Shown piece after piece: positions 43,437-56,066 of a stretch of 64,000 bases of DNA (positions within the stretch are counted from its first letter, which is position 1; each line of letters begins with the position of its first letter). Origin of the DNA: Nitrospira sp. (lineage in GTDB: Bacteria; Nitrospirota; Nitrospiria; Nitrospirales; Nitrospiraceae); contig JADYYH010000035.1 of the NCBI GenBank assembly GCA_020853775.1, positions 1 to 64,000 on the forward strand. The letters are read 5' to 3'. The notes under the pieces are model-generated. The model had not been told where the DNA came from and searched no databases. It worked only from the letters and a program-made list of their open reading frames with translations. The translations under genes and the position numbers were made by a program.

Positions 43437-43451
43437 TGGCACGCGGGTTGC
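43437..43451 (+). promoter_or_regulatory. Sigma-54 type -24/-12 promoter before the NtrC-type regulator gene
   Basis: TGGCAC (43437-43442), five bases, then TTGC (43448-43451) gives the GG-N10-GC spacing required for sigma-54. It lies 122 bp upstream of the regulator ATG, so transcription would begin about 43463. This suggests autoregulation by the intact activator. It is found by eye only. Confidence 0.55.
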
Positions 43452-43573: not shown

Positions 43574-44992
43574 ATGGGGAACGCAGGTACCATACTCATT
43601 GTCGATGACGAAGTTGATGCGTTGGACAATTGTCGGCGCATTCTGGGGCGTCTCGGGCATCGGTGTCTGACGGAGAATGATCCGCTGCGGGCCCTCAATG
43701 TGATGCAGGCAGAACGGCCTGAGTTGGTACTGACTGATCTGCGTATGCCCGGTCTGGACGGCATCGGTGTGCTCAATGCGGCGAAGGACCTGGATCCGAA
43801 CATCAAGGTGGTGCTGTTGACGGCTTACGCGACGGTACAGACGGCGGTGACCTCTCTTCGCCAAGGCGCGCTGGATTACATTCTGAAACCCTATACGAGC
43901 ACTGATCTTGAGAATGTCACCCGCCGAGCGTTTGCCGAGCAGGCGAAGGATGCAGAGGCGTCAAGGGGGCAGGCAACCGCGATAGAAGGTGAGCCGTCTG
44001 CCTCCCTCGCTGAATATCCTGCCGGCCGAGAGTTGTTGGGCGAGAGCCGGGCCATCCGGGACGTGCTGGCCTTGATCAACAGAGTGGCGGCCACAGACGC
44101 CAACATTTTGATCTACGGTGAAAGTGGAACTGGAAAAGAACTGGTGGCTCGCGCCATCCATCACCGGAGTCGCCGGGCCGCCCAGCCGTTTGTGCCGGTG
44201 GATTGCGCGTCGCTCTCCGATGCGTTGCTCGAGTCCGAGTTGTTCGGTCACGAGAAAGGAGCCTTCACGGGCGCCTATGCGGCAAAACCGGGGCTGTTCG
44301 AGGTCGCTCATGGCGGGACGGTCTTTCTCGACGAAGTGAGCAGCATGAGCCCGACACTTCAGTCGCGGCTGTTGCGCGTGTTGCAGGAACGGCATGTTCG
44401 TCGGGTGGGCGGTGCGCGATACACCGACGTGGATGTGCGGATGATTGCGGCCTCCAACCAGGGGCTTGAAGAGGCCTGCCAGGCGGGCGCATTTCGAGAA
44501 GACCTGTACTATCGTCTGAATGTCATTCCCATTCAGCTGCCGCCCCTTCGCGAACGGGACGGGGATGTGGAGTTGTTGGCGTATGAGTTTCTCACTCGGT
44601 TCATGGCGAAACATCGGTACCTGTCCGGTTCGACGCCGCTGTTTTCGCCGGATGCGCTTACGCTGATGAAGGGGTACTCGTGGCCGGGCAATGTGCGGGA
44701 GCTTCAGAATGTCATCGAACGAGCCAGTGCGCTCGCCGATGGACCGGTCATTCAGACGGAGCACTTTCCGGAGCGGCTACGCCTGATGCAGGATGACGAA
44801 CGATCCGCCGTCGAAGGGGCATCGTACAAACAGGCGAAGCAGGAAATGGTCCGTTCCTTTGAGCGCAGCTTTCTCTCCGACCTCCTGCATCGTCATCAAT
44901 GGCACATGAGCCATGCTGCTCAGGAAGCAGGTGTCGATCGTAAGACGATTGAGCGGATGGTTAAGCGTCACGGTCTTCGCGACACGCGCTGA
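43574..44992 (+). CDS. Sigma-54-dependent NtrC-type response regulator, intact
   Basis: A 472-residue regulator with all three expected parts. The receiver domain has ILIVDDEVDALD, phosphoacceptor Asp in VLTDLRMPGLDG and Lys in YILKPYTS. The AAA+ domain has Walker A YGESGTGKELVA, the sigma-54 contact loop HEKGAFTGAYA, Walker B TVFLDEVSS and the Arg-finger region. The C-terminal Fis-type helix-turn-helix is SHAAQEAGVDRKTIERMVKR. A clear GGAGG precedes the ATG. Two genes downstream is a second, incomplete copy, then a giant oxidase with its own sigma-54 promoter. The cognate kinase is not adjacent. Confidence 0.93.
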   Translation: MGNAGTILIVDDEVDALDNCRRILGRLGHRCLTENDPLRALNVMQAERPELVLTDLRMPGLDGIGVLNAAKDLDPNIKVVLLTAYATVQTAVTSLRQGALDYILKPYTSTDLENVTRRAFAEQAKDAEASRGQATAIEGEPSASLAEYPAGRELLGESRAIRDVLALINRVAATDANILIYGESGTGKELVARAIHHRSRRAAQPFVPVDCASLSDALLESELFGHEKGAFTGAYAAKPGLFEVAHGGTVFLDEVSSMSPTLQSRLLRVLQERHVRRVGGARYTDVDVRMIAASNQGLEEACQAGAFREDLYYRLNVIPIQLPPLRERDGDVELLAYEFLTRFMAKHRYLSGSTPLFSPDALTLMKGYSWPGNVRELQNVIERASALADGPVIQTEHFPERLRLMQDDERSAVEGASYKQAKQEMVRSFERSFLSDLLHRHQWHMSHAAQEAGVDRKTIERMVKRHGLRDTR

Positions 44993-45325
44993 ACGGCTGG
45001 TTCCCCCCCCCAGTTTTGTAGACGGCCTCCCTTCTCTCTTTTCTTGCGATGGGGCGTCAGCGTCCCATCTGTCTTTGCCGCTAGACAGCTCAAATCAACG
45101 GCCCTTCACATCGTTCATCGGCATTGTTGGCTCGTCATGGGGCACTCGCTCCCCATTTGGCCGCAGCTCGCCGCGAGGCGGAACTGCCGTGTATTGAAAT
45201 TTCCACTACTTATCTCGTTCGTCGTGCAATCGTCAGCGGGCATATATATTGCTGATAGTTTTTGCGAGTGGTGTGGAGTTTTGGAAGGTGTCGGGATTGA
45301 ATCTCGTGACGGTGCTGAGAAGCCT
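44993..45325. other. Intergenic stretch between the two regulator genes
   Basis: No second gene is supported here. A run of nine C (45003-45011) and an AT-rich box CATATATATT (45241-45250), a possible -10 region about 75 bp before the next ATG, are visible. No GG-N10-GC element was seen, so the second regulator probably uses a different type of promoter. Confidence 0.4.
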
Positions 45326-46540
45326 ATGAACGGTCCTGGAAAAATTCTCGTCGTTGATGACGAACCGGATGCATTGGAAAACTGCCGCCGCATTTTGAGT
45401 CGGCACCGTTACGATTGTTTCGTCGAAGCAGACCCCAGTCGAGCGATCGGCGTGATTGAGCGGGAACATCCCCGATTAGTGCTGACCGATTTGCGGATGC
45501 CTACGCTGGATGGAATCTCCCTGCTCAAAGCCATCAAACGTGTCGACCCTGGGATACAGGTCGTGTTGCTGACGGCCTATGCCAGCATCCAGACGGCGGT
45601 CACCTCGATGCGATGCGGCGCCTTTGATTACCTCGTTAAACCCTTCACCAGCGCGGAACTCGAAGGGGTCGTGCGACGCGCCTTTGGAGAGATCGACCCG
45701 GCAGTTGAGCCGGATCGTTCGCCGCTTGCGGTCGGCGGACAAGGTCCGGCTCGCGCGCCGGAGCGGCCTGCGCTCAAGGAGATTATCGGGACGAGCCCGT
45801 CGCTCTGCGCGGTTCGTGAATTAGTCGCCCGAGTGGCGCCGACCGAAGCCGCCGCATTGATCATGGGAGAGGGCGGAACCGGGAAGGAGTTTATCGCGCG
45901 GGCGATCCATGCTCGCAGTGCCCGTGCCCGGCGCGCCTTTGTGCCGCTGGACTGCTTGGCGGCCATGGAGACGGCGCTGGAAGCGGAGTTGTTCGGTTGC
46001 GAGCCCCAGCCGTCTCTGAGTGAGAGCCGTGCCACGCCCGGCCTCTTCGAATTGGCCGACGGGGGGACGTTGTTTCTGGATGAAGTCGCTGGGCTGAGCC
46101 TCCGGCTGCAAGCCAAACTGTTTCGGGCGTTGAAGGAGCAACGATTCCGTAAAGTCGGCGGCACTCGTTTCATGCCCGCCGATGTTCGAGTAATCGCCTC
46201 GTCAACGCAGGATGTGCATCGTGCAGCCGGTGCGGGAGAGTTCCGCCAAGATTTGCTCGCCTACCTCACGGTGATCCCCATTACGCTGCCGCCCCTGCGG
46301 GTACGGAGAGAAGACATCGTGCTGCTCGCGCACGAGTTCCTGCAGGCATTCCTGCGCCGTAAACGGAACGTCCCTCCCCAGGAAGGCGTGGTGGCGCTGG
46401 AAGCCATCGCCTTGCTGCATCGGTATTCGTGGCCCGGCAATGTGCGCGAGTTACAGCATGTGATCGAGCGGGCCGCCGCCCTGTCCGAGAGTGCCGTCAT
46501 TCACGTCGAACACCTTCCTGATCGGTTCCATCACCTGTAG
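45326..46540 (+). CDS. Degenerate NtrC-type regulator lacking GAFTGA loop and DNA-binding domain
   Basis: This 404-residue paralogue of the preceding regulator starts at the ATG at 45326; the frame is open to 45044 but the extension is not conserved. The receiver keeps its residues (VVDDEPDALE, VLTDLRMPTLDG, YLVKPFTS). The AAA+ domain keeps Walker A GEGGTGKEFIA and Walker B LFLDEVAG. However, the sigma-54 loop between FGCEP and TPGLFE reads QPSLSESRA where its neighbour has KGAFTGAYA. The chain ends after VEHLPDRFHHL, so no Fis-type helix-turn-helix is present. It cannot activate sigma-54 in the usual way and might instead modulate the intact regulator by mixed oligomers. Confidence 0.85.
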   Translation: MNGPGKILVVDDEPDALENCRRILSRHRYDCFVEADPSRAIGVIEREHPRLVLTDLRMPTLDGISLLKAIKRVDPGIQVVLLTAYASIQTAVTSMRCGAFDYLVKPFTSAELEGVVRRAFGEIDPAVEPDRSPLAVGGQGPARAPERPALKEIIGTSPSLCAVRELVARVAPTEAAALIMGEGGTGKEFIARAIHARSARARRAFVPLDCLAAMETALEAELFGCEPQPSLSESRATPGLFELADGGTLFLDEVAGLSLRLQAKLFRALKEQRFRKVGGTRFMPADVRVIASSTQDVHRAAGAGEFRQDLLAYLTVIPITLPPLRVRREDIVLLAHEFLQAFLRRKRNVPPQEGVVALEAIALLHRYSWPGNVRELQHVIERAAALSESAVIHVEHLPDRFHHL

Positions 46541-46865: not shown

Positions 46866-46881
46866 TGGCACTGATGTTGCT
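46866..46881 (+). promoter_or_regulatory. Sigma-54 type -24/-12 promoter of the giant multicopper oxidase
   Basis: TGGCAC (46866-46871), five bases, then TTGCT (46877-46881) matches the consensus, with GG-N10-GC spacing exact. It points at the oxidase gene; transcription would begin near 46892, leaving a leader of about 230 nt. It lies in the 580-bp gap after two sigma-54-type regulator genes, which strengthens the reading. Confidence 0.7.
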
Positions 46882-47121: not shown

Positions 47122-50100
47122 ATGAGAGGGACGGGAGGAAGGCGTAAGCGCTACGCGAAACGCGTAGCGGCCGGTCTGCCGATGGCGCTACTCGCGAGTA
47201 GCCTGTTGGCGGCACCGTTAGGGCTCGCCGCCGATCGGCACAGTCACGGAAGCGATGACAGTGCGGCATCGGCGGAGAAGGTGATCTACCGTGAAGGTGG
47301 GTCGGTGCTGCATGACCGGATGATGGATGAGGTCAAGCGGCAACAGGAATTTGTGGGACAAAAAGGAGGGTATGCATCGGGAGCCAACAGCCACATGATG
47401 CAGCAGGGTGTCCTGCTGGTGGCGGAGGATCCGGGCAAAGTGTCGGTCACGAACGGGCAACGTTGTCCGGCGAATGCGCCGACGAAAGAGTACAACGTCT
47501 CGGCGATCAACATCGAGATTACCCTGAGTCGGTTTCTCGATTATTTCCCGGGATACATGTACGTGTTGTCGGAGGATGTCCAAAAAGCGCGGGCCGAGGA
47601 GGCCTCCAACAAGGCGGCTCGCGACAAAGAGAATGACCCCGGTGCCGTCTCCAACGGTCTGCAGGGAGACATCATTCAGCCGCTCGTCATTCGCGCCAAC
47701 CAGGGCGATTGCGTCAAGCTGACGTTGAAGAACGAGATTGCAGAAGAGCCCACCAATCTGATCATCAACGGGTCGTCGATGGTCGTGGCCTCCACGGGCA
47801 AGCCGGCGACGCCGTCCACCTCGGACGCAACCGTGTTGCCGGGTGCGAGCCAGACGTTTGAGTGGTACATCAAGCCCGAGACGCAGGAAGGCGCGCACTT
47901 CTTCCGGTCCCATGCGTCGCGTGATCAGTTCAATCAAGGCCTTATCGGGATGTTGGTCGTGGAGCCACGCGGTTCCCGCTATTTGAGCCCGTTCGATGGG
48001 AAGCCAATGGCCAGCGGGTGGGAAGCGATGATCGAAGATCCGAGCGGCGCGGACTTCCGCGAGTTTGCGATTTTCTATCATGAGGCGGGAGACGAAGCGT
48101 TCCGGTTGTTGAACAAAAAAGGGGAGATGCTGCCGCAGCGCGATCCCCATACCGATTCCTATCGGCCTGGTGCGCGGTTGCTGAACTATCGCAGCGAGCC
48201 GCACGGCACCAGACTCGAATTGCAGGCCCACATGGGCTTCTATGCCGATGAATCGATGGGCTACGGGTCGTATACGTTCGGAGACCCGGCGACCACGGTT
48301 CCGCGATCCTACTTAGGCGATCCGGCCAAGTTCCGGATGGCCGGCGGGTCGGAAATCGTGCACTCTCATCACCTGCACGGCGGATCCATCCGCTGGGCGA
48401 GACAACCGGGCAACAGCCGGTTGGACTTTGCCGCGTCCGCCAATGGGCCGGTGAAGTTTCCGTTGATCGCCGACACCTCGGACCGATTGGATGTGCAATC
48501 CATCGGTCCGACGGAGATCTACGATCAGGTGATCGAAGGCGGATCGGGAGGCCTGCAGGCGCTCGCCGGTGAGTTCGTCTTTCATTGCCACATTCCGCAA
48601 CATTATGTGACGGGCATGTGGGGGTTCTGGCGCGTGTACAACACGCTGCAGCAGGAAGGCTCGCAGACCGATGTGATGAAGCCGTTGGTCGAATTGCCGG
48701 ATCGTGTCGGCAAGATCAAGGCCGGCATCGGCAGCGATAAACTCGTCGGCACCACCGTGGACTGGTATGGCGGCAAGAAATTCCAGGTCACGAAGGACGA
48801 GACCAACTGGCATGCCAACCCGGCGAAGGTGTCCTTGAAGGACTGGGTGGAAATGCAGTTGGTGCCGCAAGGCAAGCCCGGCCATAAGAACGCCGAGAAG
48901 GAGCAGACGCTGGCCTACGACGCGACGGTGAATGATTGGGCCTGGGACGGGCAGAAAGCCCTGAGCGAGCCCGAGACCACGTACGAGTGGGTCAATTATA
49001 AGTCGGCGACTCCGGGGAAACGGCAGACCATTCTGTTCGATCCAAAGAGTGGAAAGGTAGCCTGGCCATGGCTGCGCCCGCATTTGGGACGGCGCGTGCC
49101 GTTCTCACCCAGCCACAGCGGAGCGCCCTGGTTGGAACCGATCCATCGTCGGGACGACGGGAGCAATTCAACGGAACCGGCCAAACCGGGTGAAAACGGG
49201 CCGTGGAGCCTGTGTCCGGAGGGTGCCCCGGTCAAGTACTTCAACATTCATGCGATCACCCTGCCGATCACGCTGAAGTCCAAGACGGCGAAGACTCCGG
49301 CGATCGTCGATCCGGATGGGTTGTTGTATGTGCTGCATGAGGAAGAAGAAGAAGTCCGGAAGAACCCTGCGAAGCAGATGCCGTTGGTCATTCGCGGCAA
49401 CGTGCAGGATTGTGTCGATGTTGTGTACAAGAGCGAACTGAAGGACGATGAGCGGCAGGGCTTCTCCAGCAAGACGAACCTGCATCCGCACATGTTCCAG
49501 TTCGACACGCAGGCCTCGGACGGCCCGATCATCGGGTTCTCGTACGAGATGTCGTTGCGGCCGTTTGCGATTCTGAAGGACGAGCATCCCGGCAAGGGCA
49601 TGCCCGTTCCAGCCAACACCACCATCCAGGCGGATGTCGCCAAGGGGGCCACGACCCTCACGGTGAAGGATGCCTCCCGCTACCATCTGAAGACCGAATT
49701 GGGCGTGGGCATGGATGAGGTGGGTGGATTCGAATCCGCGCGCATCAGCAAGATCGAGGGTAACACCATTACCTTCGAGCGTCCGCTGAAGTATGCGCAC
49801 AAGAAGGGCGAAATCGTGTCGGTGGAGTGGATTCGTGAGCGCTGGTATGTGGATGCGGATTTCGGCACCACGTTCTGGCACGATCACGTGTATGGCTTGG
49901 ACGGATGGGGACATGGATTCTATTCCACCTTCATCGCCGAGCCGCCTCGTTCCACGTATCATGACCCGGTGACCGGCAAGGAACTGCGGAGCGGCCCTGT
50001 GGCCGACATCCATACGACCGAACCGGTGTCGGCGCATATCACGGGTTCGTTCCGCGAGATCGTGACGCAGGTCATGGACTCCAATCCGCGGACGGCCGAG

Positions 50101-51882
50101 TTGATTACGTCCGACAACCCGCAAGCGCGCGTCGGCGCCATCTCGGTGGATGGCACGCCGTCTGCGGTCTATCCCGCCAAGCTGAACACGTCGCCGATGG
50201 GTTTCCTCAACGGTGGCGAAGCGACGACGGGCGGCGGCTACAACATGCGTGTGGAGCCGTTGTCGGTGCGGTTGGCGAACAATGGGGACCCATCCCTGCT
50301 GTTCAGCAGCCGTGTGCACGGAGATCCCGAGACGCCGATCTTGCGCGCGTATCTGGGTGATCCGATCGTGGTCCGGCTGATCGAAGGATCGGCCAACGAA
50401 GTCCACTCGTGGCATATCAGTGGACACTGGTTCCCGATGGAGCGGTACAGCAAGAACTCCATCCCCCGAAGCTCGTTGCATGTGGTGATCGGCGAACGGT
50501 ATGACGCCGCGATCCCGGCCGCGGGTGGGCCGCAGCAAATGGCGGGTGACTATCTGTATTACAGTGGTCGCGCCTCGCACTTTGCGGAAGGCAGCTGGGG
50601 ACTGTTCCGCGTGCAGGACAAACCGGACCAGACGTTGAAGCCGCTGCCGGGACGTGAAGAGATCCCGCAGTCGGCGAAATCGGTCTGTCCGGCGGACGCT
50701 CCGCTCAAGACCTTCAATGTGTCGGCCATCGACAAGGCGATCCGCTTCAACAAGGGGACGCCGGGCGTGATGGAAGTGGACCTGGAGCGGAAGATGGTGC
50801 TCGGGAATGAAACGGGCAAGATGTACGTCCTCGAAGGGGAGAAGGTCAAAGTGGCCTCGGGCAGCGTCGAGCCCAGCCCGTTGACCCTGCATGTGAATGT
50901 CGGCGATTGCATCAAGGTCAATCTCAGGAATGAGATGGCCAAGGATCGTGCGGGATTCCATGTGGATCATCTGGCCTTCGATCCGAAGGACTCCATGGGT
51001 ATCAACGCCGGCAACAATCCGGGCGACCAAACGGTGGCGCCGGGTCAGAGCCGGACCTACACCTACTATGCCCATCCTGAATTCGGCGAAAACGCCGCCT
51101 TGATTCAGGACTGGGGCAATGTGATTGCGAATCCGCGAAACGGTCTGTTCGGAGCGATCATCATCGGTCCGAAGGGGTCGCAGTACCGGGATCCAGTCAC
51201 GGGTGAGGACTTGGCCCAAAAGAGCTCCTGGAAGGCAGACGTGATTGTGGACCGGGGCCTGTCGGGGAACGAGACCCGTCAGAATTACCGATCCTTCGCG
51301 TTGATGTTCCAGGACGAAGACAACATCATCGGCACCAGCTTCATGCCGTACATCCAAAAGGTGGCCGGTGTCACGGCAGTCAACTATCGGTCTGAACCGA
51401 CTGACTACCGTGTCGAAAAAGGCTGTGCCTATAGCGAAGTGTTCGCATGCGTGAAGGCGGGCGACACCCCCGTCACGCCGACGATCGCGGCCCATGTGGG
51501 CGACCAAGTCGTGGTCCACGTGCTGGGCGCGTTCAGCGAACAGGTGCAACTCTTCAGCGTGTCTGGTCACGAGTGGAAGCACGAGCCCTATATGAGCGGT
51601 GCGGATCTCGTCAGCACGATGGAGTTCGGTGGCACCGAAGTGATCAATGCCTGGTTGAACGGCGGCGCCGGAGGGCCGAATGGCATTCCCGGCGACTACA
51701 TCTGGCTGAATCAACGGCCGGGGTACCTGGATGCCGGGCATTGGGGCATGTTGCGGGTGCTTGACCGTGACAGCCGTGCGATTCTGCCGCTCAGCGGACA
51801 GGCGCCGGCCACGCAGCAGGCGGAGGAACCAGCTCCGGCCCAGGTGATCCCTGTGGTCTCGAAAGCTGAGGCTGCTCGCTAG
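47122..51882 (+). CDS. Giant secreted multicopper oxidase with three cupredoxin modules
   Basis: A 1586-residue exported protein; signal region ends near LAAPLGLAADRHSH. Three modules each begin CPxxAPxKxxNxxAI (residues 115, 698 and 1189). Module 1 carries VHSHHLHGG (H414, H417, H419, an HxxHxH motif) and FHCHIPQHYVTGM (C489, H494, M499: complete type-1 site plus type-3 ligands). Module 2 carries NLHPHMFQF (H788, H790) and FWHDHVYG (H920, H922), the two HxH motifs, and a damaged HSWHISGH. Module 3 lacks ligands (DWGNVIANPRNG at the HxH place). One complete four-copper set can thus be assembled across modules 1 and 2. Size recalls MnxG-type metal oxidases. The substrate is unknown. Confidence 0.88.
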   Translation: MRGTGGRRKRYAKRVAAGLPMALLASSLLAAPLGLAADRHSHGSDDSAASAEKVIYREGGSVLHDRMMDEVKRQQEFVGQKGGYASGANSHMMQQGVLLVAEDPGKVSVTNGQRCPANAPTKEYNVSAINIEITLSRFLDYFPGYMYVLSEDVQKARAEEASNKAARDKENDPGAVSNGLQGDIIQPLVIRANQGDCVKLTLKNEIAEEPTNLIINGSSMVVASTGKPATPSTSDATVLPGASQTFEWYIKPETQEGAHFFRSHASRDQFNQGLIGMLVVEPRGSRYLSPFDGKPMASGWEAMIEDPSGADFREFAIFYHEAGDEAFRLLNKKGEMLPQRDPHTDSYRPGARLLNYRSEPHGTRLELQAHMGFYADESMGYGSYTFGDPATTVPRSYLGDPAKFRMAGGSEIVHSHHLHGGSIRWARQPGNSRLDFAASANGPVKFPLIADTSDRLDVQSIGPTEIYDQVIEGGSGGLQALAGEFVFHCHIPQHYVTGMWGFWRVYNTLQQEGSQTDVMKPLVELPDRVGKIKAGIGSDKLVGTTVDWYGGKKFQVTKDETNWHANPAKVSLKDWVEMQLVPQGKPGHKNAEKEQTLAYDATVNDWAWDGQKALSEPETTYEWVNYKSATPGKRQTILFDPKSGKVAWPWLRPHLGRRVPFSPSHSGAPWLEPIHRRDDGSNSTEPAKPGENGPWSLCPEGAPVKYFNIHAITLPITLKSKTAKTPAIVDPDGLLYVLHEEEEEVRKNPAKQMPLVIRGNVQDCVDVVYKSELKDDERQGFSSKTNLHPHMFQFDTQASDGPIIGFSYEMSLRPFAILKDEHPGKGMPVPANTTIQADVAKGATTLTVKDASRYHLKTELGVGMDEVGGFESARISKIEGNTITFERPLKYAHKKGEIVSVEWIRERWYVDADFGTTFWHDHVYGLDGWGHGFYSTFIAEPPRSTYHDPVTGKELRSGPVADIHTTEPVSAHITGSFREIVTQVMDSNPRTAELITSDNPQARVGAISVDGTPSAVYPAKLNTSPMGFLNGGEATTGGGYNMRVEPLSVRLANNGDPSLLFSSRVHGDPETPILRAYLGDPIVVRLIEGSANEVHSWHISGHWFPMERYSKNSIPRSSLHVVIGERYDAAIPAAGGPQQMAGDYLYYSGRASHFAEGSWGLFRVQDKPDQTLKPLPGREEIPQSAKSVCPADAPLKTFNVSAIDKAIRFNKGTPGVMEVDLERKMVLGNETGKMYVLEGEKVKVASGSVEPSPLTLHVNVGDCIKVNLRNEMAKDRAGFHVDHLAFDPKDSMGINAGNNPGDQTVAPGQSRTYTYYAHPEFGENAALIQDWGNVIANPRNGLFGAIIIGPKGSQYRDPVTGEDLAQKSSWKADVIVDRGLSGNETRQNYRSFALMFQDEDNIIGTSFMPYIQKVAGVTAVNYRSEPTDYRVEKGCAYSEVFACVKAGDTPVTPTIAAHVGDQVVVHVLGAFSEQVQLFSVSGHEWKHEPYMSGADLVSTMEFGGTEVINAWLNGGAGGPNGIPGDYIWLNQRPGYLDAGHWGMLRVLDRDSRAILPLSGQAPATQQAEEPAPAQVIPVVSKAEAAR

Positions 51883-51900
51883 CAACGGTCTGGGCTAAGC

Positions 51901-51946: not shown

Positions 51947-52031
51947 TCGTTCTTCAAAACGTGAGCGAGACAAGTCGTTGAGAAACAGGTCGGGTGAAGA
52001 GCGTGGATGGTGGAGGGCAAACCGCCTCGTC

Positions 52032-52634
52032 ATGATGCAGCACCGACGCGGCTTGAGCATTGCTGGGCTGGTCGTGTCCAGCCTGTTGGGGTGCACGACC
52101 GGATCCGCCTGGGCCTTTGAGTTCTCAGGGGAGCGGATCGTCACGATCCAAGGCGTCCGGGTTGCGGCACAGGTGAATGCGAAGGACGACCGCTGGCGGT
52201 TTGAGTATGCCTACCCGCAGGGTAGCGTGATGGCGGCGATCATCCGGCAAGATCGTCAGACAGCATGGCTGCTCCTGTCCAATCGTCGATTGTATCTCGA
52301 AGTGCCGATCGCGCGGGAACACGGGTTATTTGTTGGCAAGACCTTGGACGGCGAAGAGTCGCGCGAGCGAATCGGCGTGCAAGAGCTCAATGGTCATGCG
52401 ACGGAATTGTTCGAGGTGACCGTTCTGGAAGGAGCGGAGCGAAAACAGTATTATCAATGGGTGACGGTGGCGGAACACTTCCCTCTGAAAACTGTGAGCA
52501 AGCAGGGCGACTGGTCGGTGGAGTATCGGCGCGTGGTGTTTACGGAACAATCGGCGCTGATCTTCGAGTTGCCGCAGCGATTTGATCGAGGCAATCCCCC
52601 GCCCCCGCGGGAGGAGACCCACTCGGCGCAGTAA
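52032..52634 (+). CDS. Exported hypothetical protein of the oxidase locus
   Basis: From the ATG at 52032 the product has 200 residues; the frame is open to 51978 and the true start is unclear because the nearest GGAGGG is about 14 bases away. The signal sequence (GLSIAGLVVSSLLGCTTGSAWA) contains LLGC, which could be a lipobox. The mature part is beta-rich (VTIQGVRVAAQVNAKDDRWR, LLLSNRRLYLEVPIAREH, YYQWVTVAEHFPLKTVSKQG), similar in style to LolA/LppX-like half-barrels. No family is named with confidence. It is the first small gene behind the oxidase. Confidence 0.65.
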   Translation: MMQHRRGLSIAGLVVSSLLGCTTGSAWAFEFSGERIVTIQGVRVAAQVNAKDDRWRFEYAYPQGSVMAAIIRQDRQTAWLLLSNRRLYLEVPIAREHGLFVGKTLDGEESRERIGVQELNGHATELFEVTVLEGAERKQYYQWVTVAEHFPLKTVSKQGDWSVEYRRVVFTEQSALIFELPQRFDRGNPPPPREETHSAQ

Positions 52635-52680
52635 CGGAGCAGGCAAACCGTCGACCAGAGAGGGCGGAGGTCAGAAGCAT

Positions 52681-53457
52681 ATGGGCAAGCGTCGGGTGAC
52701 ACGTGCGGCAATGGTCAGTTGTGCAGTCTTCCTTGGGTTGCTGGGTGTTCAATCGCAAGAGCTTCGCGCCTATGAGGTGCAGCCCGTCTCCAGCGGGGGC
52801 ATGTTGCAAGGAACGGTGAAATTGAAGGGCGAGGCCCCGGCGCCCAAACAGTTCGAACTGCGGCGATATCCGGACCGGACCTTTTGCGGGGCCCTGTCTG
52901 ATGGCAGCGGGTATCGCCTGCTTCGGGAAGTCAATGTGGGACAAGCGGGGGGACTGAAGGATGTCGTCGTTGTGATCGAAGACATCAGCCAAGGCAAACC
53001 GTTCGCGGCCGTGGAGGCGCAGGTGGAAGCCAACGTGTGCCAGTTTTTTCCCTTCGTGACGATTGTCGCGCAGCAGCAGGGCATCACGGTGACGAATCGC
53101 GACCCGGTGTTTCACGATATCCAGGGCTATACGTACGATCAGGCGGGGATTGATATTGTCCTGCATCGCCCATCCTTGAAAGCGACGGGTACGACCGAGA
53201 TGGTGAAGCTGGTGAAGGGCCGGAAAGTCTTCACCATGCAGTGCGGCATGCACCCCTATATGCAGAATTGGGGCTATGCGGTGGATAATCCCTATTACGC
53301 CGTGACGGATCTGGAGGGAACCTTTTCAATCGGCGACCTCCCGCCGGGCACCTACAAGGTGCGGGTGTGGCATCCCGTTCTCGGCGTGCAGGAACATCCT
53401 GTGACGGTGACGGCTGGGGGAGCGACGACACTGGAGGTTTCATTTGAAGACAAATAG
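52681..53457 (+). CDS. Periplasmic cupredoxin-like protein with carboxypeptidase-regulatory-like end
   Basis: This 258-residue exported protein starts at the ATG at 52681 with GGAGG upstream. The central domain has a possible type-1 copper site: His in DPVFHDIQG and CGMHPYM, a C-x2-H-x2-M ligand set as in plastocyanin-like proteins. The C-terminal part (LEGTFSIGDLPPGTYKVRVW) resembles carboxypeptidase-regulatory-like beta sandwiches. An electron-transfer role with the upstream oxidase is a reasonable inference. It overlaps the next gene by 14 bp. Confidence 0.8.
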   Translation: MGKRRVTRAAMVSCAVFLGLLGVQSQELRAYEVQPVSSGGMLQGTVKLKGEAPAPKQFELRRYPDRTFCGALSDGSGYRLLREVNVGQAGGLKDVVVVIEDISQGKPFAAVEAQVEANVCQFFPFVTIVAQQQGITVTNRDPVFHDIQGYTYDQAGIDIVLHRPSLKATGTTEMVKLVKGRKVFTMQCGMHPYMQNWGYAVDNPYYAVTDLEGTFSIGDLPPGTYKVRVWHPVLGVQEHPVTVTAGGATTLEVSFEDK

Positions 53458-53974
53458 TCGCACAGGTGTATTGCCCTTGTTGCTGGGCTACGTCCTGTGT
53501 CTCATGGGGCTCGGGTGGTTCGGCGATGCATGGGCGGCAGAGACGGATGCCGCCCGTCCCGGGCGAGTAGAGGTCGTGTTGGCCGCTGAGTATCGGAAGG
53601 ATGGCGAGGCGATTAAGCAAGATTTCGTGGAGGCCGGCCTTGCCAATGTGCACCTTCAATTTATGAAGCAAGGTCAGCCGCCGCCGAATATCGGCGTGGG
53701 GAGGGAGGTGACGGCCGAGCGGGCTCGAACAGCCATTCGCCTGGCCAAGAAATACAATCGTGGCGTGACCATTCTGTTGCCCACGCACCTCTTTCCCCCC
53801 CACTATGTGACAATCGCGTCATCCAGTTTCGATGATACGGTGGAGTATGCGATTCAGGAGGACGAACTGAGGCAGTTGGAAGATCCGGCGTTGACGACCG
53901 AGCAGTTTCATGAGCTCTACCGGCAATTCACCGTCATGCGAGTGCCGGCCTCTAAGAAAGGGCGGGTGTTTTGA
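53444..53974 (+). CDS. Exported hypothetical protein
   Basis: A 176-residue product starting with TTG at 53444, which has GGAGG about seven bases upstream within the end of the cupredoxin gene. The signal sequence is clear (LPLLLGYVLCLMGLGWFGDAWA). The mature protein is mixed alpha/beta with no cysteine or obvious metal motif. The overlap with both neighbours shows it is translated as part of the operon. I recognise no family. Confidence 0.7.
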   Translation: MKTNSRTGVLPLLLGYVLCLMGLGWFGDAWAAETDAARPGRVEVVLAAEYRKDGEAIKQDFVEAGLANVHLQFMKQGQPPPNIGVGREVTAERARTAIRLAKKYNRGVTILLPTHLFPPHYVTIASSSFDDTVEYAIQEDELRQLEDPALTTEQFHELYRQFTVMRVPASKKGRVF

Positions 53975-54381
53975 TGAAGACCAGCCTCTGTGTCGTAGCG
54001 ATTCTCTTGTCAGTATCCGGCCTGGCCCACAGTGCCCTCGCGGGGTCAGTGAAAGATGCCCGTGAGCACGGGGCTGCCATGTTGCGGGACGCCGAGGACA
54101 TGGTGATGCATGGAGGAATGGGGGATGCCAAGGCGATCGTTCACCACTGTCGTGAAGTCACAAAACATGCGGAAGCCATCATTAAAGCCCTCCCCCCGGC
54201 CGATCAACATGGCAAGGATGCCTTGCCTCACCTGAAAGATGCGATTGCCTATTGTGAGCGGGTGGCCAAGATGGGAGATGACGTTGATCCCGGGGCGACC
54301 TTGAACCCCGCGACGAAGGCGCGTGCGGCCGCCCGGGAGGCGATGAAGCATGTGACCGCGGTCAAGGACGGCGGCGCCTAA
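53974..54381 (+). CDS. Small metal-binding protein, SmbP-like
   Basis: This 135-residue exported protein has a signal peptide (LCVVAILLSVSGLAHSALA) and a helical mature part in which His recurs: REHGAAMLRDAEDMVMHGG, VHHCREVTKHAEAI, DQHGKDALPHLKDA, MKHVTAV. This resembles SmbP of Nitrosomonas europaea, a small four-helix periplasmic protein that binds several Cu and other divalent ions. Unlike SmbP it has a few cysteines. Its position behind a multicopper oxidase and a cupredoxin fits a copper-buffering role. Confidence 0.75.
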   Translation: MKTSLCVVAILLSVSGLAHSALAGSVKDAREHGAAMLRDAEDMVMHGGMGDAKAIVHHCREVTKHAEAIIKALPPADQHGKDALPHLKDAIAYCERVAKMGDDVDPGATLNPATKARAAAREAMKHVTAVKDGGA

Positions 54382-55064: not shown

Positions 55065-56066
55065 TTATTGGGTCAGTGATCGCGCGCAGCGGACGCCGAC
55101 CGTGGCGCTGCGCTGGTCCGGAGACGCACCCCCGCGAGTGGCGGTGCGCAACAAGGCTGGCGCACTTTTCCAGGACCCGCCGCGCACGACTTTGTAGCGG
55201 CCGGTGTGGGGGCCTGGCGGGTTTCGCTCGGGCATGACCTTGTAGTAATCGATGCCGAACCAGTCTTGAACCCACTCCGCGGCATTGCCGGCCATGTGGT
55301 ACATGCCATAGGGACTTCGTCCCTGCTCCCCGCTGTCGGTCGGTGCCACAATCGGAATCTCGTGCACGTGATATTGCCCGAACGTCGCAAGGCCCGGTTC
55401 AGGCATGGTGTGTCCCCAGGGGAACAGATTCGCTTCTGAGCCGCGCGCCGCCTTTTCCCATTCCGCCTCCGTCGGCAGGCGTTTGCCCTGCGCCAGGCAG
55501 AACTGCGAAGCCTCAGCCCAGGTGAGATAGAGAGCCGGCCATCGCGCGAGCGTCTCGTCGGAGACGGCATGGACCGAGACCATATGCCAAATCAGGCGCT
55601 GCAGTTCAGGCGAGGGTGTTCGTTGCTGGCGCTGCAGAGAGGCGAGGTATTGCCCCAGACTGACTTCATCCCGATCCATCTCATACCGGTCGAGCCAGAC
55701 GCGGCGCTGCGGCTGCTCCGTATCGTCGTAGTGACTGTTGGATTCGAAGAGCAATTCGGTCGTCTGATTCGTTCCCATGAGAAACCACCCCTCCGGCACC
55801 TGGAGCATGGGCGAGGCGGGGGCCGATTCGGCAATCGCAGTCAGATGACGCGACAACTCCGGTTTCATGTCAGAGACGGCCGTCGAAGGAAAGAACAAGA
55901 AGACGACGATCATCAGCACCAGCAGAAGCCGATGGGTGGCAGGGGCGCTAGAGGAGATATATGCGGGGATGTGACTGCTAGGGATCACGTGCGTACGGGT
56001 TTCGCGCTTCTGCGATGCAGGTAATCCGGCCACGCCTACTATACCGGCATCCGATTGCCAGGACAA
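55065..56066 (-). CDS. Sulfatase-modifying-factor-fold protein without catalytic cysteines
   Basis: A 333-residue protein with a membrane anchor or signal (RLLLVLMIVVFLFFPSTAV) and the FGE-sulfatase fold: VPEGWFLMGT, RLPTEAEWEKAARG, GNAAEWVQDWFG and VVRGGSWKSAPALLRTATRG. In true formylglycine-generating enzymes the GGSW segment is followed by two catalytic cysteines; here those places are Ser and Leu. It is therefore unlikely to make formylglycine and may be a structural or binding member of the family. The exact start is uncertain. Confidence 0.8.
   Translation of the reverse strand: MSWQSDAGIVGVAGLPASQKRETRTHVIPSSHIPAYISSSAPATHRLLLVLMIVVFLFFPSTAVSDMKPELSRHLTAIAESAPASPMLQVPEGWFLMGTNQTTELLFESNSHYDDTEQPQRRVWLDRYEMDRDEVSLGQYLASLQRQQRTPSPELQRLIWHMVSVHAVSDETLARWPALYLTWAEASQFCLAQGKRLPTEAEWEKAARGSEANLFPWGHTMPEPGLATFGQYHVHEIPIVAPTDSGEQGRSPYGMYHMAGNAAEWVQDWFGIDYYKVMPERNPPGPHTGRYKVVRGGSWKSAPALLRTATRGGASPDQRSATVGVRCARSLTQ

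Follow-up and report, generated by a model that had tools for sequence, protein, structure and literature searches.

An MnxG-class multicopper oxidase with six domains beside sigma-54 regulators in a Nitrospira genome

In laccases and in CueO the pair of HxH motifs comes first along the chain and the HCH motif last. MnxG, which oxidizes Mn(II) as part of the Mnx complex, is one of the six-domain multicopper oxidases (MCOs). Ceruloplasmin and hephaestin likewise have six cupredoxin domains and one trinuclear site, as does the MCO described here. The sections of Vasin et al. (2013; PMC3600357) that deal with domain layout assign the chordate proteins a trinuclear site at the interface of domains 1 and 6, with type-1 sites in domains 2, 4 and 6 of ceruloplasmin and hephaestin. 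That study analysed 23 homologous prokaryotic sequences (1217-2681 aa), and according to the same sections all bacterial six-domain MCOs analysed place the trinuclear site in domains 2 and 3 and a mononuclear site in domain 2 only. The trinuclear histidines of green-algal ferroxidases are also described there in domains 2 and 3; the Fox1-type enzymes of Chlamydomonas resemble our MCO in this respect but have, according to the same study, an extra mononuclear site in domain 4. In our protein this place is degenerate.

Among nitrite oxidizers, the passages of Lucker et al. (2013; PMC3578206) on this enzyme class report a conserved MnxG-like MCO from both Nitrospina gracilis and Nitrospira defluvii and liken it to MnxG of Bacillus SG-1. 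That oxidase, of the same class as ours, lies in a nitrite-oxidoreductase gene cluster, whereas the copy studied here is set apart by its surroundings, standing beside sigma-54 regulators, a cupredoxin-like gene and a gene for a small metal-binding protein (SMBP). In the parts concerned with manganese, one study describes Nitrospira as abundant in manganese-removing sand filters and suspected of Mn oxidation, with MnxG-type genes in the Nitrospira MAGs (PMC12070406), and another finds MnxG-type genes in nitrifier MAGs from tunnel biofilm (PMC11995701); both call for tests. Each Manganitrophaceae genome is described as carrying two novel MCOs in the corresponding part of a further study (PMC9040806).

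In the window, by which we mean the whole 64-kb stretch of DNA that was analysed, an intact ATG-to-stop frame encodes an MCO of 1586 aa (Table 1) whose N-terminus, judged by eye, is a signal-like segment. Its copper-ligand motifs follow one another in the order HSHHLH (414), HCHIPQHYVTGM (488), HPH (788) and HDH (920), and a motif scan placed H414-H419, H488...M499, H788-H790 and H920-H922 exactly where an earlier note on this DNA had put them. The degenerate sites listed in the same note were also found, RSH at residues 262-264, HSWHISGH at 1095-1102 and DWGN at 1330-1333. When the protein was shuffled 2000 times with its composition preserved, HxxHxH arose 0.042 times per shuffle, HCHx3Hx4M did not occur, and HxH appeared 1.55 times per shuffle vs six times in the real sequence; these counts lie far under those observed, which rules out a chance origin of the motif set. 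Opposite the MCO lies an antisense open frame (49168-51885, minus strand, 905 aa) that exceeds 1600 aa in relatives (loci L016, L028 and L093); such long antisense frames are likely a by-product of base composition.

Table 1. Positions in the window of the oxidase, its ligand motifs and conserved segments, the neighbouring genes and the promoter-like sites
Feature	Coordinates	Strand	Basis or detail
Sigma-54 promoter-like site ahead of first response regulator	43437..43451	+	
Sigma-54-dependent response regulator (receiver, AAA+, Fis-type HTH)	43574..44992	+	Domain matches
Second response regulator with sigma-54 interaction domain	45044..46540	+	Domain matches
Sigma-54 (-24/-12) promoter-like site TGGCAC-N5-TTGC	46866..46880	+	About 240 bp before MCO start
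Six-domain MCO, 1586 aa	47122..51882	+	ORF, Pfam, PDB match
Domain 2 HSHHLH, residues 414-419	48361..48378	+	H414 type-1; H417, H419 trinuclear; roles by homology
Domain 2 HCHIPQHYVTGM, residues 488-499	48583..48618	+	C489, H494, M499 type-1; H488, H490 trinuclear; roles by homology
Conserved 168-aa stretch joining domains 2 and 3, residues 530-697	48709..49212	+	Alignment
Domain 3 HPH, residues 788-790, first HxH of trinuclear site	49483..49491	+	Motif and alignment
Domain 3 insert between the two HxH motifs, about residues 815-910	49564..49851	+	Alignment
Domain 3 HDH, residues 920-922, second HxH of trinuclear site	49879..49887	+	Motif and alignment
Small secreted-looking protein, conserved after MCO	51978..52634	+	No Pfam match
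Cupredoxin-like protein, CarboxypepD_reg-like C-terminus	52675..53457	+	H147, C190, H193, M196 (from ATG at 52675)
176-aa secreted-looking cassette protein	53444..53974	+	No Pfam match
Small metal-binding protein SMBP (PF16785)	53971..54381	+	

The Pfam families Cu-oxidase_3 (residues 182-283) and Cu-oxidase_2 (residues 389-504) pass their cut-offs in the MCO, and among solved structures PDB chain 9bxa_A, MnxG of Bacillus sp. PL-12, is the best match by far, aligning in seven pieces (E = 1.1e-98); a profile of domains 2-3 finds the same MnxG with E = 5.6e-67. Sequence repeats, QPLVIRANQGDCV / MPLVIRGNVQDCV / SPLTLHVNVGDCI in the odd-numbered domains and FGDPATTVPRSYLGDP / HGDPETPILRAYLGDP / GDTPVTPTIAAHVGD in the even-numbered ones, resolve the three modules of the earlier note into six cupredoxin domains arranged as three pairs. 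These repeats and the piecewise match along MnxG, itself a six-domain protein, point to membership in the MnxG class; a complete set of type-1 and trinuclear ligands is present and, by ligand alignment, would be divided into a type-1 site in domain 2 and a trinuclear site in domains 2 and 3. Judged by sequence comparison, the architecture is well supported. The comparison with MnxG that the earlier note had proposed bears out a common layout: in 9bxa the HCH motif belongs to domain 2 and aligns with ours, and domain 3 carries HIH and HDH aligned with HPH and HDH of our protein, so that the motif order is the same. Counted in the alignment, the 9bxa chain has an alanine at position 340, where the type-1 histidine is expected, presumably the result of a deliberate H340A mutation; a Priestia relative has histidine at the matching place.

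The two proteins differ in length (1227 aa in 9bxa vs 1586 aa here), and MnxG is without the domain 3 insert, a segment that is mostly missing in the Priestia and Halomarina relatives and shorter in Streptomyces. Among the neighbours of the window gene described below, nothing resembling the MnxE/MnxF partners of MnxG was noticed. Pfam searches gave no match for this insert and no family over the cut-off for the linker between domains 2 and 3. With the NCBIfam equivalog model NF041487 for Pseudomonas MnxG homology is detectable, but the score of 122 bits is far under the cut-off of 3100, and Mn(II) as substrate is therefore not implied by family rank. The three-domain layout of laccase and CueO does not apply, since HCH comes before the HxH pair, and the CueO model matched only a short stretch, far under its cut-off. 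A trinuclear site of the ceruloplasmin type at domains 1 and 6 is likewise absent, as both of these domains lack ligands. In the alignment the equivalent ligand places are incomplete in domains 1, 4, 5 and 6. AlphaFold2 models of domains 1-4 (21-sequence alignment) and domains 2-3 (25-sequence alignment) reached mean pLDDT values of 49.6 and 51.0, with about 20-35 over most of domain 2, values too low for the models to be of use and most likely caused by the shallow alignments.

The fetched loci gave 93 distinct open frames with a length of 1400 aa or more. Three of these proved to be antisense and were set aside, and in all of the remaining sense-strand homologues (90/90) the twelve ligands are kept. 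Position 262, within a degenerate site, is arginine in 36 and histidine in 53 of the 93 rows, a mixture indicating that dead sites drift. In the plasmid-borne relatives compared, from Streptomyces (32% identity), Priestia and the archaeon Halomarina, domain 2 holds HxxHxH together with HCH, and the HxH pair follows in domain 3. A tree built from 45 of the 90 sequences separates three Nitrospirota clades, which are about 87%, 68% and 54% identical to the window MCO, and places Streptomyces outside them, the deepest joins being unsure owing to long branches. Matches at E <= 1e-10 occur in 146 of 148 related genomes of the order, and a phylum-wide sample gave matches in 66 of 198 genomes. Of the named contigs with copies of at least 85% identity, almost all bear the label Nitrospira or Nitrospirae, and one is titled uncultured Nitrosospira. 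Within the window's own genus near-identical copies were seen in G027 and G018 only, with at most three candidates scored per genome, and other genera of the family have copies of 86-89% identity; this patchiness would reflect either patchy inheritance or transfer. A scan of viral contigs yielded no relatives of the MCO.

The window genome itself contains three full-length MCO copies as well as fragments. One paralogue, truncated by the contig end, lies on the same contig (C35:70992-72164, locus L024) and is preceded by a response regulator and a kinase-sized gene. A separate MnxG-like oxidase of 2435 aa on another contig (C78, locus L103:7007-14311) has the same motif order and scores 1966 bits with the Pseudomonas MnxG model vs the 122 bits of the window MCO.

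Several genes around the MCO recur with it. A small secreted-looking protein follows it in 22 of 25 orthologous loci, and the cupredoxin-like gene is found at most 3 kb downstream in 22 of the 24 that are long enough to tell and follows members of all three oxidase clades. Residues H147, C190, H193 and M196 of the cupredoxin-like protein are at least 95% conserved (91 aligned rows including the query), and we take their spacing to mark a type-1 site as in amicyanin. SMBP lies downstream within 5 kb of the MCO in 17/22 orthologous loci, a response-regulator match is found at most 3.5 kb upstream in 10/21, and matches to the 176-aa protein were limited to 5/22 at the distance allowed. A sulfatase-modifying-factor-like (FGE) protein (55065-56066, minus strand), in which the catalytic cysteine pair is absent by eye, also recurs beside the oxidase cassette. 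Further upstream, a 525-aa protein of the MbnB/TglH/ChrH family (PF05114; 39006-40583) has a long C-terminal extension; it was dropped as a partner of the MCO because no match was found beside MCO relatives. Among the paper titles found by the literature searches, none names sigma-54 control or this oxidase cassette.

The 64-kb window holds two exact copies of the sigma-54 motif TGGCAC-N5-TTGC, one ahead of the first response regulator and one ahead of the MCO, vs 0.2 expected; 2 of 100 shuffles reached this number. The exact motif is found upstream of 4 of 34 MCO orthologues, and sites agreeing at nine or more of the ten fixed positions are present in 27 of these 34 upstream regions vs about 1.5% of 6562 background tiles, counts that are not independent events because the upstream regions are related sequences. 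Where one position deviates it is mostly the first base, and most of the near-exact sites lie 244-272 bases ahead of the expected MCO start. In the other clades near-exact motifs were found for 6/41 members (68% clade) and 2/11 (54% clade). For a promoter of the sigma-70 type the region holds one site only, located elsewhere and without excess over shuffles.

Taken together, the protein is best explained as a secreted six-domain MCO of the MnxG class from a Nitrospira-family nitrifier, an enzyme that holds its type-1 copper in domain 2 and its trinuclear cluster where domains 2 and 3 meet, oxidizes one-electron donors, most likely a metal ion, and reduces O2; we assign this reading a probability of about 0.88. 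We infer copper occupancy, ring fold, electron route and substrate as follows. H414, C489, H494 and M499 would bind the type-1 copper, while H417, H419, H488 and H490 would form the trinuclear cluster with H788, H790, H920 and H922 across the domain 2/3 interface, roles that we assume for the twelve ligands by homology with known MCOs. The type-1 copper would oxidize one-electron donors and the HCH motif would carry the electrons to the cluster, where O2 would be reduced to water. Lacking a complete site, domains 1 and 4-6 most likely complete a ring-like scaffold, and the neighbouring type-1-like cupredoxin is a possible redox partner. As donor a metal ion is most likely, Mn(II) before Cu(I) or Fe(II), since the nearest characterized protein is a Mn oxidase.

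The motif order had been described in the earlier note as reversed. The order is real, but as an anomaly it does not stand, since it is standard for bacterial six-domain MCOs, in MnxG and the relatives compared here as well as in the layout that has been in print since 2013 (Vasin et al., 2013). The apparent reversal relative to laccase arises because a different one of several equivalent domain interfaces is occupied. That order unlike laccase and CueO could otherwise suggest a new architecture that arose through rearrangement in this organism, a reading to which we give practically no credence and which the homologue comparisons rule out together with the layout sections of Vasin et al. (2013): the order is common to all sense-strand homologues that were compared, which span Bacillota, Actinomycetota, Archaea and Nitrospirota. 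The proposal that a single type-1 and trinuclear set is split over modules 1 and 2 agrees with the predicted assignment to domains 2 and 3, and the comparison with ceruloplasmin, whose trinuclear site is at domains 1/6, sets the two proteins apart. The third module does lack ligands, as the earlier note held; the special purpose suggested for it finds no support, and it is the ordinary last third of a six-domain protein. Since ligand sets are absent from four of the six domains one might also think of a protein that stores copper or has a structural role and is inactive as an oxidase, but this is highly improbable given that the twelve catalytic ligands are retained throughout the homologues while other sites drift.

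What the enzyme does for the cell is more debatable. A role in copper tolerance, with CueO-like periplasmic oxidation of Cu(I) and with the cupredoxin-like protein and SMBP buffering copper, is possible if rather doubtful: both of these proteins, the former with conserved copper ligands, adjoin the MCO, and a gene named CopC lies near the Streptomyces and Priestia relatives, but among solved structures the nearest homologue is MnxG, an Mn oxidase, and not CueO, and neither a copper ATPase nor a copper-responsive regulator was found in the nearby frames examined. Protection against oxidative stress, in which the MCO would make Mn(III) as a periplasmic scavenger of superoxide, appears unlikely. 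It takes up the anti-reactive-oxygen role that is proposed, in the passages on the MnxG-like oxidase of N. gracilis and N. defluvii, by Lucker et al. (2013), yet the oxidase discussed there is the one encoded close to the nitrite oxidoreductase genes, and the literature search found no experiment on the proposed role. More speculative still, and in our estimate decidedly improbable, is that the sigma-54 regulator and promoter, the MCO, the type-1 cupredoxin and SMBP act as an inducible periplasmic metal-oxidation module, the cupredoxin taking electrons from the type-1 site so that oxidation of Mn(II), Fe(II) or Cu(I) would feed the respiratory chain and not O2 alone.

With the preferred reading of a secreted MnxG-class oxidase, the motif order becomes a mark of the six-domain class and not of a rearrangement, which corrects an apparent anomaly. 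For Nitrospira, the conserved sigma-54-linked cassette represents a second candidate for Mn oxidation, apart from the better-matching MnxG homologue, and the link to sigma-54 may offer a regulatory handle on possible Mn oxidation in these bacteria.
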